From Patescibacteria group bacterium (lineage in GTDB: Bacteria; Patescibacteriota; Microgenomatia; 2-02-FULL-39-11), in the NCBI GenBank assembly GCA_023379265.1, contig JAMCUI010000008.1:1-32584 (forward strand): a DNA stretch of 32,584 bases, in the 5' to 3' direction. Position 1 is the stretch's first letter. Each line of letters opens with the position of its first letter. A program made the translations under genes and the position numbers. The notes beneath the pieces are model-generated. The model saw only the letters and a list, made by a program, of their open reading frames with translations. It had not been told where the DNA came from and did not search any database. Positions 21,269-32,584 of this stretch are shown here, one piece after another.

Positions 21269-21739
21269 ATGAAAAATAAAAAAAAGTTAATTACAGTAAT
21301 AATAGGACTTGCTATCCTTATAGCAGGAATAATTTCCGCGGGTATTTACTTGGAAACAAAACAACAAAAAAAGACTAACCTCTCAAATGCCACATCAGAC
21401 CAAACTCAAACGACCCAAAATATAGTGGAAAAAGTAGGTAAACTTGCCTATCTGCCGCAGGATGAGATTCCGGTTATTGCCATCGTTTCTGACCTCTCTA
21501 AATTGAAAGGTCAACCATTTTTCTCAAATGCCAAAGCTGGTGATATAGTGCTTTTTTACAACAATGCCAAAAAGGCTATACTTTATGATCCAAATGACAA
21601 CAAAATTGTCGAGATGAGACCGATGCTTTTTTCCGCCCCACCGCGCATAAGCACCGATTCAGGAACCCTTTTTACCTCGCCTTTAGGAGAAATTAAATCA
21701 TTTGGCAATACGATATCTACCCCATCTGCAAAAAAATAA
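21269..21739 (+). CDS. Single-pass membrane protein of unknown function
   Basis: N-terminal TM (LITVIIGLAILIAGIISAGIYL) then ectodomain VIAIVSDLSKLKGQPFFSNAKAGDIVLFYNNAKKAILYDPNDNKIVEMRP. Confidence 0.75.
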   Translation: MKNKKKLITVIIGLAILIAGIISAGIYLETKQQKKTNLSNATSDQTQTTQNIVEKVGKLAYLPQDEIPVIAIVSDLSKLKGQPFFSNAKAGDIVLFYNNAKKAILYDPNDNKIVEMRPMLFSAPPRISTDSGTLFTSPLGEIKSFGNTISTPSAKK

Positions 21740-21870: not shown

Positions 21871-22725
21871 ATGGCTGCCCAAAGGTCCCAACTTTTATCT
21901 GTCATAACAATCATCCTTTTTGGGGGCTTTTTTGCCTTTTTTCTTCCTCCTTTTCATAAAACACATGCCCAACAGCTTTCCACTTTTAGCATAGCCACAA
22001 CTTACCCAATAAGCGATAAGAATATAAAAGATGGGGATATCGTATCTCTGGTGGATGGCAGCGACAAGCTAAAACTATCAAAGACAGCCTACGACGATAA
22101 AATGTACGGCGTCTATGTGGCTTCACCCAAAATTGTATACCGGGCTCCCAACGGTTCAAACTTTCCCATCATCAGAGACGGAATAGCCTCAGTCAATGTG
22201 ACCACTTTGGGAGGCCCGATAAAGATTGGCGACTATCTGACCTCCTCCCCTATTGCCGGGGAAGGGCAAAAGGCAACGGAAATTTCTGGCTATGTTTTGG
22301 GGATTGCCCTACAGAATTTTTCCGATAAGGACGGCGCAAAAATAGATTATAACAAGCAGAAAGTAACATCAGGCAAAATACTGGCAATATTGGGAATTGG
22401 CCCAGCTTCTCCTGTACAGATAAAATCCGCAGGCGGCTTTTTCGGGACTCTAAAAGTACTCCTGACAAACTTTATTTATAGCATCACTTCCACCAAAGAA
22501 GGTATTTCACTGGTCAGATTTGCTATGGCAGCAATGGTAGCTGTGGCCACAATTTACATAAACTTCCGGACTTTTGGTAAAAATGTCACCCAAGGAATTG
22601 AAGCAATAGGCAGAAATCCGCTGGCAAAAGCTTCTATACAATCCATGATTATTCTAAATATTGCCTTAATCGCTCTTGTAAGCATTGGCGGCATTGTACT
22701 GAGTTTGGCAATTATTACGATATAG
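21871..22725 (+). CDS. Fusion: signal peptide + fiber-type (peptidase-G2/autoprocessing-like) domain + degenerate F-type c-subunit-like TM hairpin
   Basis: Ectodomain GDIVSLVDGSDKLKLSKTAYDDKMYGVYV...GPIKIGDYLTSSPIAGEGQKATEISGYVLGIAL; C-terminal FGKNVTQGIEAIGRNPLAKASIQSMIILNIALIALVSIGGIVLSLAIITI resembles c-subunit loop (R-x-P) and helix 2; sits in the atpE position. Confidence 0.65.
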   Translation: MAAQRSQLLSVITIILFGGFFAFFLPPFHKTHAQQLSTFSIATTYPISDKNIKDGDIVSLVDGSDKLKLSKTAYDDKMYGVYVASPKIVYRAPNGSNFPIIRDGIASVNVTTLGGPIKIGDYLTSSPIAGEGQKATEISGYVLGIALQNFSDKDGAKIDYNKQKVTSGKILAILGIGPASPVQIKSAGGFFGTLKVLLTNFIYSITSTKEGISLVRFAMAAMVAVATIYINFRTFGKNVTQGIEAIGRNPLAKASIQSMIILNIALIALVSIGGIVLSLAIITI

Positions 22726-22781: not shown

Positions 22782-23504
22782 ATGGCTCTTGGCGTAAATC
22801 TGTATACCCTTCTTTATTTCTCACTGGGACTAAATATATTCCTAGTCCTTTATTTCCTCATGCGTCTTTTATCAGGGGGCAACATCTCATCCGCCACTGA
22901 GAAAACACAACATGACTCGTCTGAAATAGTCACAAAAACAAAAACAGAGTCAGCAGACATTCTCTCTAAAGCCATCAGACAGGCAAACAAAATATTGGTA
23001 AATTCCGAACTTAAGGGCTTAAGAATCGTGGCAAAGGAAAAGCTGGACAGCAAAAAAATAGCCGATGAGTACCAGGAGCATATAAAATCCCTTGAACAGA
23101 AACTGGAAAAACAATATGCCCAACAGTTGGAAGATACCCAAGAAGGCTATAACATCTTTCTTTCTACAGTCGAAAAAAGCCTCCAGGAAAGGATTGACCA
23201 GAACCAGAAAATGCTTGAAGCCAGAGCTTTGGCCTTTATTGACCATTCTGAAAGATTGATGGAACAGTTTACCGAAAGTATGCAAAATCAGGTTAGAGAG
23301 AAAGTTGAAAAAGAGTTGCAACAGGCAAAGGCCGAAATCGAGACTTATAAACAACGCCGGATGCAAATACTGGATGAAAATATCATTGAAATCCTGGAGA
23401 AAACATTACATGTTGCTCTGGGCAAAAAGCTTTCTCTTGCTGATCAGAGCGACTTGATATACCAGGCCTTGGAAGATGCCAAAAAGGAACACGCGCTTGA
23501 TTGA
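22782..23504 (+). CDS. atpF: F-type ATPase b-subunit-like protein (long form)
   Basis: N-terminal TM followed by long charged coiled coil; located between c-like and delta-like genes. Confidence 0.7.
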   Translation: MALGVNLYTLLYFSLGLNIFLVLYFLMRLLSGGNISSATEKTQHDSSEIVTKTKTESADILSKAIRQANKILVNSELKGLRIVAKEKLDSKKIADEYQEHIKSLEQKLEKQYAQQLEDTQEGYNIFLSTVEKSLQERIDQNQKMLEARALAFIDHSERLMEQFTESMQNQVREKVEKELQQAKAEIETYKQRRMQILDENIIEILEKTLHVALGKKLSLADQSDLIYQALEDAKKEHALD

Positions 23505-23597: not shown

Positions 23598-24131
23598 ATG
23601 GATGATATCTCTTTACTACTCAAACCTATATTGCAAAATTCATTTTCAAAGACAGACATTCTGCGGCGGCTGCATCTTATCAGAGAATTCCTGGAGGCTT
23701 CTTTTTTCTCAGGCAGCAGGGAAAGTTTAGATTCATTTTGCCGGAGAAAAAACCTTTCTCCCCTGGACAGCCAATTTCTCTTCTCGCTAGGTAAAAATTT
23801 TTTCCAGTCTTTTTCCTCCAAAAATATGTATAAGATTCTTGATAGAATTGACAAGGAAGTAAAAAATGTTCCCGCGGTCATCATGTATCTTCCCTATATT
23901 CCTGATGAAAACGAAATTTATAAATTGGGATTGTGGTTTAAGGAAAATCTAAAAAAAGACATGCTTATCGAAATAAAAAACGACAGGGAAAAAATAGGTG
24001 GTTGTGCCCTATCCAAGGAAGGCTACTACAACGATTATTCCCTTCATCATTTTATCTCCAAAAGAAAATCGGAAATTCTCTCCCTTCTAGATGAATATGA
24101 CAAAAACCGTCCGGCACAGGCTAAACAGTAA
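23598..24131 (+). CDS. atpH: F-type ATPase delta-subunit-like protein (divergent)
   Basis: 177 aa, position directly upstream of alpha; C-terminal IEIKNDREKIGGCALSKEGYYNDYSLHHFI resembles the delta C-terminus. Confidence 0.6.
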   Translation: MDDISLLLKPILQNSFSKTDILRRLHLIREFLEASFFSGSRESLDSFCRRKNLSPLDSQFLFSLGKNFFQSFSSKNMYKILDRIDKEVKNVPAVIMYLPYIPDENEIYKLGLWFKENLKKDMLIEIKNDREKIGGCALSKEGYYNDYSLHHFISKRKSEILSLLDEYDKNRPAQAKQ

Positions 24132-24158: not shown

Positions 24159-25856
24159 ATGATTCAAGACAATAGTGAAGAAAAAAAAGAAGTAGGATAT
24201 GTTGTTGGAGCTCAAGATTACCTGGTGTATCTTGAAGGTCTTCCTTCAGCCAGAATAAACGATATAGTTATCAGCCAAAAGAGCGGACGGGCTATAGTCA
24301 CAGCGCTTGAAAGGGAAAAGATTGAAGTACAGATGCTAGATTCGGAAAAGCCCACGCCTGGAGACTCTTTCCAACTGACGGGAAAAGGGCTCACTCTACC
24401 CCTAAAAGCCAATCTTTTGGGCCGGGCAATTGATCCCCTTGGAGTTCCAATTGACGGAAAAGGCAAGTTACCTCCCATAAAAAATGTGGAAATAGATTTG
24501 GATATTGTCGCACCCGGTATAGACGCCAGAGAAGTCATATTGGACCAATTCACAACCGGCCTTCTTGTTATCGATACTCTTCTTCCTATTGGAAAGGGAC
24601 AGAGGGAATTGCTTTTCGGGGAACCCAGGAGTGGAAAAACATCGCTTCTTCTGGATATTATCCTGAGCCAAAAAGACACTGGACGCATCTGTGTCTACAA
24701 TGCTATAGGCAAATCTGAAGTGGATATACTCCGTTTCCTTTCTGCTTTGGAAAAATTTGAGGCGATTGGATATACGACAGTTGTCGCCGCCGACTCTAAT
24801 ATGTCTGCTCCTATTATAAACATCTCCCCTGCTGTCTCTCTATCTTTGGCTGAATACTACCGGGATCAAGGACGGGATGTACTACTTATATTGGATGATC
24901 TGTCAACTCATGCCAAATATCTGCGTGAAGCATCGCTTCTTGCTGGACGCATACCAGGCCGTGAATCATACCCAGCAGATATCTTCTACCAACACAGCCA
25001 TCTGGTGGAGCGGGCTGGATATTTTAACGATAAGTACCACAAAGGCTCAATTACCCTACTACCTATGATTGAAACGAATATAGAAAACCTGACAAGCGTC
25101 ATCCCCACAAGTGTCATGTCTATGACTGATGGGCATATACTTTTCTCTTCAGCCCTGCGCGCTCAGGGAAAATACCCTGCTATTGAGGTGGACAAATCCG
25201 TCACCCGTGTAGGACGACAGACCCAAAAGCTGATTCATAAAAAAATATCAGACAGGATAAGATCGCTCCTCTCACACTACCATGAGGTGGAAAGACTAAG
25301 CAGATTCGGTTCAGAGCTGACCGCAGAAACCCAACTGGTACTAAAACGTGGCGTCATAACAGAAGGACTCATTAGACAAGAACCTCTCAAACCAATACCG
25401 GTTCAAATCCAAATTCTTTTACTTACTCTAGTCTTTGCCACTTTTTTTGATAACAAGGATCTTGACTTCCTGAAAAAATACAAACAGAAAATAATTGACA
25501 CTCTTTCCCAGGAAAAAACCTACAAGGATATTGCTGCCCAACTGGACAAATTGAAATACAAAGAACTAGTAGAGTTGCTCCAGAAAAATCTCCAACCTCT
25601 GGAAAATGCCTGCAGGGAAGACGAAACGTCGCAAACTACCACGGCAACTATTACCACTGTCGCACAGAAACCACCACAAGAGACAAACGGTACAGCGTTA
25701 AACAATAAACAACCTCTGCCTATTAACAACACGACATCTATTCCTAAACAGACTCAGCAAACAAATGGTACAACTAGTACTGGGAATCAAATACAACAAA
25801 CATCCGGTTCAAATATGACAAATGTTCAAGCGAGGCCGGCAACAATACTGAAATAA
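24159..25856 (+). CDS. atpA: F1 ATPase alpha-subunit-like, short N-terminus, Q/N/T-rich C-terminal tail
   Basis: LLGRAIDPLGVPIDGKGKLP, PIGKGQRELLFGEPRSGKTSLLL, GRESYPADIFYQHSHLVERAG, ITLLPMIETNIENLTSVIPTSVMSMTDGHI, SVTRVGRQTQ (Arg finger). Confidence 0.93.
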   Translation: MIQDNSEEKKEVGYVVGAQDYLVYLEGLPSARINDIVISQKSGRAIVTALEREKIEVQMLDSEKPTPGDSFQLTGKGLTLPLKANLLGRAIDPLGVPIDGKGKLPPIKNVEIDLDIVAPGIDAREVILDQFTTGLLVIDTLLPIGKGQRELLFGEPRSGKTSLLLDIILSQKDTGRICVYNAIGKSEVDILRFLSALEKFEAIGYTTVVAADSNMSAPIINISPAVSLSLAEYYRDQGRDVLLILDDLSTHAKYLREASLLAGRIPGRESYPADIFYQHSHLVERAGYFNDKYHKGSITLLPMIETNIENLTSVIPTSVMSMTDGHILFSSALRAQGKYPAIEVDKSVTRVGRQTQKLIHKKISDRIRSLLSHYHEVERLSRFGSELTAETQLVLKRGVITEGLIRQEPLKPIPVQIQILLLTLVFATFFDNKDLDFLKKYKQKIIDTLSQEKTYKDIAAQLDKLKYKELVELLQKNLQPLENACREDETSQTTTATITTVAQKPPQETNGTALNNKQPLPINNTTSIPKQTQQTNGTTSTGNQIQQTSGSNMTNVQARPATILK

Positions 25857-25924: not shown

Positions 25925-26770
25925 ATGTCTACAATAATTGAGCTTAAGGAAGAACTGGATGATGTACAAACACTAAACTTTATTAGTCAAGCCTTCACGG
26001 AAGCAAGTGCTGCCAAACTACAAAAAATCCGGGGTGATTTTGAAAAAAACAAACAGTTCTACGAAGAGATAAGCCATGTCTACCATCTGGTAAAAACAAG
26101 CGCGGTCAAAGCCAAAAAGCTACATGATAAAGCGGAAAAAACTCAGGTTGATGAAAAAACTCTTCATGTTGCCCTGACCTCCAACCAACATTTTTACGGC
26201 AACATAAACTCGGAGCTGATGCGCAAATTCACTAGTGACGCCGCAAGCACCAAAGCCGACCTTATGGTTATCGGAAAGACGGGAAACGATTTTATGCGCT
26301 CGGCCAGGCTGGGAAAACCATATAAGACTTTGCAATTTACCAAAGACTCCCCCACCCGGGAAGAACTGGTCACTTTTCTGGACAGTGTTAAAGAATACCT
26401 TAAGGTATTTGTCTATTATCCCAAATTTGTCACCCTTTTGACACAAACTGTTGCGGTAACCGATATTACCCAATTTTCCAATCCTGACGCAAAAGAATTA
26501 AATGAAGAAATACACATGATATTTGAACCGGAATTGCATCAGATGCTGGACTTTTTTGAACGCACTGTTCATACAGTCCTTTTTTTGCGCGTCATACTTG
26601 AAACTGACCTTTCAAGGACTGCAGCAAGACTTATCGCCATGAGCTCGGCTGATGAAAGATCAAAAGAAATGATAAGTGAGAAAAAACAGGAAATCAGAAA
26701 ACTTGAGATGTCTCTGATGAATGCGCAGATGCTTGAGACTTTTTCCGGGATGAGTAAATGGAAAAAATAG
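25925..26770 (+). CDS. atpG: F1 ATPase gamma-subunit-like
   Basis: N-terminal FTEASAAKLQKIRGDF, TSNQHFYGNINSELM, C-terminal DLSRTAARLIAMSSADERSKEMI...SLMNAQMLETFSG; between alpha and beta. Confidence 0.82.
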   Translation: MSTIIELKEELDDVQTLNFISQAFTEASAAKLQKIRGDFEKNKQFYEEISHVYHLVKTSAVKAKKLHDKAEKTQVDEKTLHVALTSNQHFYGNINSELMRKFTSDAASTKADLMVIGKTGNDFMRSARLGKPYKTLQFTKDSPTREELVTFLDSVKEYLKVFVYYPKFVTLLTQTVAVTDITQFSNPDAKELNEEIHMIFEPELHQMLDFFERTVHTVLFLRVILETDLSRTAARLIAMSSADERSKEMISEKKQEIRKLEMSLMNAQMLETFSGMSKWKK

Positions 26771-26875: not shown

Positions 26876-28555
<1,680 letters not shown>

Positions 28556-28849: not shown

Positions 28850-29101
28850 ATGAAAAACTTATTGACTATCCGTATTTCAAGCCCAGAAAATCTAGTGTGG
28901 GAAGGAAAAGGTGAATGGGTATCCTCAATCAACTCAAAAGGGCCTTTTGACATACTACCTATGCATGCAAATTTCATCACAGTTGTCGAAAAACATCCTA
29001 TTAAAGTCAAGGATGAGACTGGAAAAGTAAACGAATACTCATTTGATCGGGCTGTACTATATATCCACGACAACCAAGTATCTATCTACGTAGGTATCTA
29101 G
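28850..29101 (+). CDS. atpC: F1 ATPase epsilon-subunit-like, beta-sandwich domain only
   Basis: LTIRISSPENLVWEGKGEWVSSINSKGPFDILPMHANFITVVEKHPIKV; 83 aa, no C-terminal helical domain. Confidence 0.85.
   Translation: MKNLLTIRISSPENLVWEGKGEWVSSINSKGPFDILPMHANFITVVEKHPIKVKDETGKVNEYSFDRAVLYIHDNQVSIYVGI

Positions 29102-29763: not shown

Positions 29764-32584
<2,821 letters not shown>

Follow-up and report, generated by a model that had tools for sequence, protein, structure and literature searches.

In the window, by which we mean the whole 32,584-nucleotide stretch of DNA analyzed here, a seven-gene operon appears to encode an F-type rotary ATPase without ion transport, in which ATP hydrolysis would drive a motor whose torque is handed on to surface domains arranged in a ring; we put the probability of this reading at roughly 0.6. 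The loss of ion coupling and the fusion architecture on which it builds are well supported, and from them we infer the rotation of surface structures. Judging from its sequence, this fusion-type “ATP synthase” probably burns ATP for surface work instead of making ATP.

The operon is positioned on contig C8 of a 1.53-Mb genome whose nearest named relatives are Gottesmanbacteria, and all features described below lie on the + strand. It is headed by an open reading frame of 284 amino acids (21871..22725, ATG start, TAG stop) in the atpE position, directly 5' of six genes resembling those of other ATPase subunits, which gives the order fusion-b-delta-alpha-gamma-beta-epsilon. The original prediction of a 284-residue fusion in place of atpE thus concerned a real reading frame, and its product was found to combine a signal peptide, a phage-fibre/cement-type ectodomain and a c-subunit-like hairpin (open reading frame, alignment, AlphaFold2, hhalign and Foldseek). 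The signal-peptide-like N-terminus was likewise borne out, as residues 1-34 (21871..21972) form a hydrophobic segment that ends at a signal-peptidase-like site (...THA/QQ), and in most homologs of the alignment this segment ends similarly in ...AQ. AlphaFold2, supplied with a 76-sequence alignment, gave a model with a mean pLDDT of 90.5, in which an N-terminal helix, a beta domain, a further helix (residues 189-207, 22435..22491, possibly amphipathic) and two long helices packed as a hairpin follow each other.

The beta-rich ectodomain (residues 40-178, 21988..22404) resembles phage cement or decoration proteins in the PDB (8hdt and 8pkh; Foldseek E-values 6e-5 to 4e-4) and, among viral models, the barrels of fibres and preneck appendages (E-values as low as 5e-11). 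At the sequence level, it matches phrog_563 and, weakly, the phage cement and minor-capsid families PF22758, PF09956 and PF23982, with PF22758 scoring 18.9 bits against a curated cut-off of 27. The fibre-type fold that had been proposed for this domain therefore stands, but the accompanying peptidase G2/PF11962 label was recovered by none of Pfam, PHROGs and Foldseek. The fold is the same as in phage cement/decoration proteins (Pam3, BB1) and in fibre/preneck-appendage barrels, whereas here the domain sits on a bacterial membrane ring subunit within an ATPase operon.

The C-terminal hairpin proved homologous to F-type c subunits, as its designation as c-subunit-like required. A profile of the family hairpin aligned with 27 canonical CPR c subunits at a probability of 97.4% (hhalign, E 1.3e-11), with the loop GIEAIGRNPLA of the fusions opposite ALEAIGRNPEA of the canonical subunits. 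Against solved c-rings in the PDB, Foldseek returned a probability of 1.00, TM-scores (by target) of up to 0.86 and best rmsd values of 1.3-1.6 Å, with weak E-values (0.03 and above) because the hairpin is short. Single sequences were less telling: the window protein alone matched the NCBIfam models of ATP synthase c weakly (E 0.011-0.037), and PF00137 was matched by 6 of 76 fusion homologs, at best with 3e-4. In the alignment and the AlphaFold2 model, the hairpin consists of TM1 (residues 209-236, 22495..22578), the gamma/epsilon-docking cytoplasmic loop EAIGRNPLA (residues 244-252, 22600..22626) and TM2 (residues 255-283, 22633..22719). The family consensus of the loop is EA-I/L-GRNPLA, and its E, G, R, N, P, L and A are invariant in 81/81 distinct homologs, which comprise the window and the genome-contig loci and are a subset of 102 sequences with duplicates. 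The canonical packing motifs of TM1 (GxGxG/Pro) are replaced, so that ring size, and even ring formation, could differ.

In canonical c subunits, an essential Glu or Asp lies 18 residues after the loop proline. This position holds Glu in all 27 canonical CPR c subunits, and in the fusion family it is taken by Ile, Val, Ala, Leu, Phe, Gly or Thr, the window protein having Ala268; no Asp or Glu was found anywhere in helix 2 of the 102 homologs, some of which are duplicates. An Asn five residues before the carboxylate position (Asn263) is conserved in 72/81. Subunit a was detected in none of the fusion loci by an HMM that was built from three canonical operons and recovers those same three, and clustering of the conserved neighbors of the operon yielded no replacement for it. 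On this sequence evidence, no member of the fusion family is able to bind ions by the known mechanism, and selection has preserved the motor together with the contact between rotor and ring but given up the ion site. The original prediction was hence correct as to architecture but incomplete on the main point, namely that a ring with neither an acidic residue in helix 2 nor an atpB partner is unable to carry ions.

The remaining parts of an F1Fo enzyme, i.e., the catalytic alpha/beta/gamma core and the b/delta peripheral stalk, are present. The beta subunit (26879..28555; TIGR01039, 494 bits, above the cut-off) has its catalytic residues intact, Walker A and GERxRE being conserved in 68/68 family members and the arginine finger of alpha in 73/73, and both subunits match F1 models far better than FliI/SctN models; the DELSEED motif is not conserved. 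Gamma (25925..26770) was assigned by PF00231 (E 9e-29). The epsilon subunit (28850..29101; PF02823, E 9.5e-12) retains only its N-terminal beta sandwich, and the inhibitory C-terminal helices are gone family-wide (median length 92 vs 141 amino acids). The alpha subunit (24159..25856, profile searches) carries about 7 residues ahead of its core, compared with 22, and most of its N-terminal delta-binding helix is therefore absent, suggesting that the stator may be altered. The delta/OSCP-like subunit (23598..24131) belongs to a family of which 26/36 members match PF00213, with a PDB match to OSCP at E 1.6e-7. The b-like subunit (22782..23504), recognized by PDB profile matches to subunit b and weakly by PF00430, is modeled as one transmembrane segment (residues 5-31) followed by a 167-residue helix (residues 47-213), which is long for a b subunit; with subunit a missing, the membrane part of the stator consists of single b helices only.

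The fusion is widespread in the phylum. Although the window protein used as a single-sequence query found no relatives among viral and genome contigs, an alignment query retrieved 151 from genome contigs, and among the 80 kept, every one with a named group was CPR (Gottesman-, Davies-, Levy-, Roizman-, Ames-, Woese- and Curtissbacteria, WWE3, and Sungbacteria and other Parcubacteria). Almost all loci share one gene order, the seven genes each recurring in 87-113 of the 113 loci, and clustering of all neighbors at these loci revealed no eighth conserved gene. The survey that had been called for alongside the original prediction detected full-length fusions in at least 62 of 384 evenly drawn Patescibacteria genomes, so that the fusion is due neither to an assembly artefact nor to chance. 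At least 26 of these 62 sampled fusion-bearing genomes have no match to PF00119 (subunit a). In three genomes (G046, a single contig at 99% completeness, G321 and G343), the only two PF00006 proteins are the alpha and beta subunits of the fusion operon, and no canonical c (PF00137) was found. Five genomes of family f72 likewise hold only the alpha and beta of the fusion operon, plus weaker Rho-like or other PF00006 matches, and one of the 26 genomes without PF00119 (G175) has, at another place, an extra PF00006 pair and c/K-type genes, which presumably belong to an A/V-type enzyme. In the tree, beta subunits of the fusion type are parted from canonical CPR beta subunits by one branch with 100/99 support.

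Giant proteins recur beside the operon and usually combine a DNA-binding-like motif at the N-terminus (an HTH of MerR type or an integrase SAM, recognized by pattern) with a transmembrane segment and a long repetitive ectodomain. Such a protein lies within 2.5 kb of the operon in 43/104 loci, a rate taken from related genomes and from contigs of which many are cut; counted by reading frames, giant fibre-like proteins make up 44/338 within 2.5 kb, 4/319 farther out and 0/201 around canonical operons, with 27 upstream and 17 downstream of the fusion operon. As related genomes are not independent, these rates are descriptive. The fusion ectodomain is also present in several giants. In the window, the candidate partner is a giant surface protein (29764..32584) with two phage-integrase SAM-like domains, a transmembrane segment and collagen-like repeats, which runs off the contig end and whose adjacency recurs in the family. 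It would join a domain of DNA-binding type to a surface fibre.

In F-type enzymes, both ends of subunit c face the outside, and the loop points toward gamma and epsilon. Together with the signal peptide, this topology predicts a beta domain outside the cell, and each rotor protomer would thus carry a surface domain, as originally proposed. We suggest that the fusion protomers form a ring whose beta domains stand as a crown outside the membrane, that ATP hydrolysis would turn gamma and epsilon together with the ring and its crown, and that torque would pass to the crown and from there probably to the giant fibre-like proteins encoded next door, the whole forming a machine that would serve attachment, movement or host interaction at the cell surface. 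We counted in favor of this motor the fully conserved loop (81/81), the kept catalytic residues, the lack of ion parts, an epsilon without its inhibitory domain, the retention of the operon in genomes without PF00119, the separate grouping of its beta subunits and the accumulation of giant fibre-like proteins close to it, several of them with the ectodomain of the fusion; counted against it were a stator with nothing but single b helices in the membrane, the shortened alpha, the lost TM1 motifs and the presence of giants in only 43/104 loci. A more far-reaching proposal, to which we would give somewhat less than even odds, is that of a phylum-wide, unrecognized CPR machine in which F1 spins an ion-blind c-ring with a phage-fibre crown, coupled to giant fibres, for host-cell attachment or movement, and which in several lineages (e.g., WWE3) would be counted as their “ATP synthase”. 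To our knowledge, this would also be the first c-ring known to have been turned into a mechanical rotor for domains outside the cell, distinct from the F1-like motors of mycoplasmas.

Other explanations have been considered. By analogy with FliI/SctN, the F1 head could power secretion or assembly of the neighboring giants, with the ring as a docking platform and no spinning crown; giant surface proteins do adjoin the operon and share the ectodomain with the ring protein, but gamma, epsilon, b and delta are kept and make up a complete rotary stalk and stator, which in such form is absent from export ATPases, the alpha and beta subunits are far closer to F1 than to FliI/SctN models, the giants have transmembrane segments for ordinary export, and no export gate genes are conserved around the operon, which makes this role seem unlikely. 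We regard as similarly improbable a non-rotating scaffold or sensor, in which the ring would anchor F1 and ligand binding by the ectodomain would gate ATP hydrolysis without work being done outside. Such a device would be consistent with the lack of a visible stator anchor in the membrane and with the shortened N-terminus of alpha, yet full conservation of the rotor loop and the catalytic residues, as well as retention of the long b stator, would not be expected of it.

Far less probable still is an ordinary ion-translocating F-ATPase with an unrecognized subunit a or an alternative ion site. The homology of every other subunit to F1Fo and the polar Asn kept in TM2 (72/81) speak for it; against it stand the acid-free TM2 in 102/102 homologs, the lack of an extra conserved membrane gene and the retention of the operon by genomes without any PF00119, and the absence of both the carboxylate and subunit a nearly refutes an ordinary proton pump. 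Canonical operons also occur in some of the genomes, which would suit a decaying ATP synthase duplicate or an assembly chimera, but one gene order across the phylum, invariant motifs and the position of the operon as sole F1 in several near-complete genomes leave this origin a negligible chance, and the conservation pattern excludes a pseudogene. A motor without ion transport remains the preferred reading and was compared with known systems.

The closest of these are the F1-like X0 ATPases of mycoplasmas, among which the Type 3 enzyme is one on which MIB-MIP function depends (PMC12994834), and the Type 2 or G1-ATPase of Mycoplasma mobile is the proposed gliding motor (PMC11864180, PMC12994834). 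The CPR operon shares with Type 3 a seven-gene cluster with alpha, beta, gamma and epsilon, the lack of a usable ion channel, an alpha without the N-terminal helix and a link to surface proteins (PMC12994834, PMC3369863), and the fusion protein resembles mycoplasma Protein 5, by description, in its signal peptide, its large N-terminal part and the pair of transmembrane segments at its C-terminus (PMC12994834). In contrast, mycoplasma clusters contain a 12-TM protein and lack recognizable b, delta and c (PMC12994834, PMC3369863), whereas the CPR operon retains b and delta as well as a hairpin truly homologous to c, and has no 12-TM protein; with no gene conserved beyond the seven, no counterpart of the 12-TM Protein 1 was found. 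With Type 2, the likeness lies in an F1-type head proposed for surface movement rather than ion flow, but an additional N-terminal domain of the Type 2 beta takes part in hexamer pairing, and the membrane partners of Type 2 are different. The type-specific mycoplasma models all stayed below their cut-offs (MSC_0618, 390 bits vs 570; MSC_0619, 230 vs 520; and, for Type 2, MMOB1670, 355 vs 850; MMOB1660, 330 vs 600), as did that of the N-ATPase or alternate F1F0 (TIGR03305, 464 vs 752), from which the operon also departs in having neither subunit a nor the carboxylate. Canonical CPR F1Fo operons, including those of the same genome (L045, L044), have the same subunit set and order except for a, but they possess atpB, a c subunit with Glu, a mostly longer epsilon and a beta in a separate group.

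In the open-licence PMC literature we found no description of such a CPR system, which is no proof of novelty. ProAD requires both a and c before it accepts an ATP synthase as functional (PMC11738941), and would consequently overlook an ATPase of the fusion type. A study that surveyed how ATP synthases evolved reported incomplete complexes in CPR and interpreted them as loss (PMC10656485). In addition, it has been regarded as a puzzle that the F-type ATP synthase is kept in Patescibacteria, most of which lack respiratory chains (PMC11665869), and the dispensable ATP synthase of Southlakia epibionticum raises the same question (PMC10633639). Our results show that part of the F-type ATPases of the phylum lack ion-moving parts; these enzymes probably consume ATP to work as motors at the cell surface, so that inference of energy metabolism from alpha and beta genes alone is unsafe in Patescibacteria.

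Several further observations concern variants and neighbors of these operons. In Sungbacteria and other Parcubacteria, fusions of 434-580 amino acids have the layout HTH-TM-ectodomain-c hairpin (L101 9026-10636; L109 9356-10660; L113 1513-3087; L127 8894-10636), and the extra HTH-TM head of the Sungbacteria fusions resembles that of the giants. In family f109 (L182, L187, L193), a single F1 operon is flanked by two different fusion paralogs, which suggests a mixed ring. C-terminal tails of about 80 residues, rich in Thr, Gln and Pro, extend the alpha and beta subunits of the window and are absent in most relatives. Relatives of a small transmembrane protein of the window (21269-21739) adjoin the fusion gene at other loci (L025, L026, L041), and another, in the same genome, adjoins a giant protein of the surface type (L046 3974-4750). 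This genome also has atpB and c in canonical F-type operons, on contig C9 and at the ends of contigs C11 and C13, so that the genome (G000) holds three F-type ATPases (C8, C9, C11, C13): the ion-blind enzyme, a canonical but divergent enzyme on a long branch (L045) and a usual canonical enzyme (L044). The last is split over contig ends and has two adjacent c genes, and such tandem pairs of differing c-subunit genes, both with Glu, occur in canonical CPR operons (L044 229-456 and 499-717; L147).
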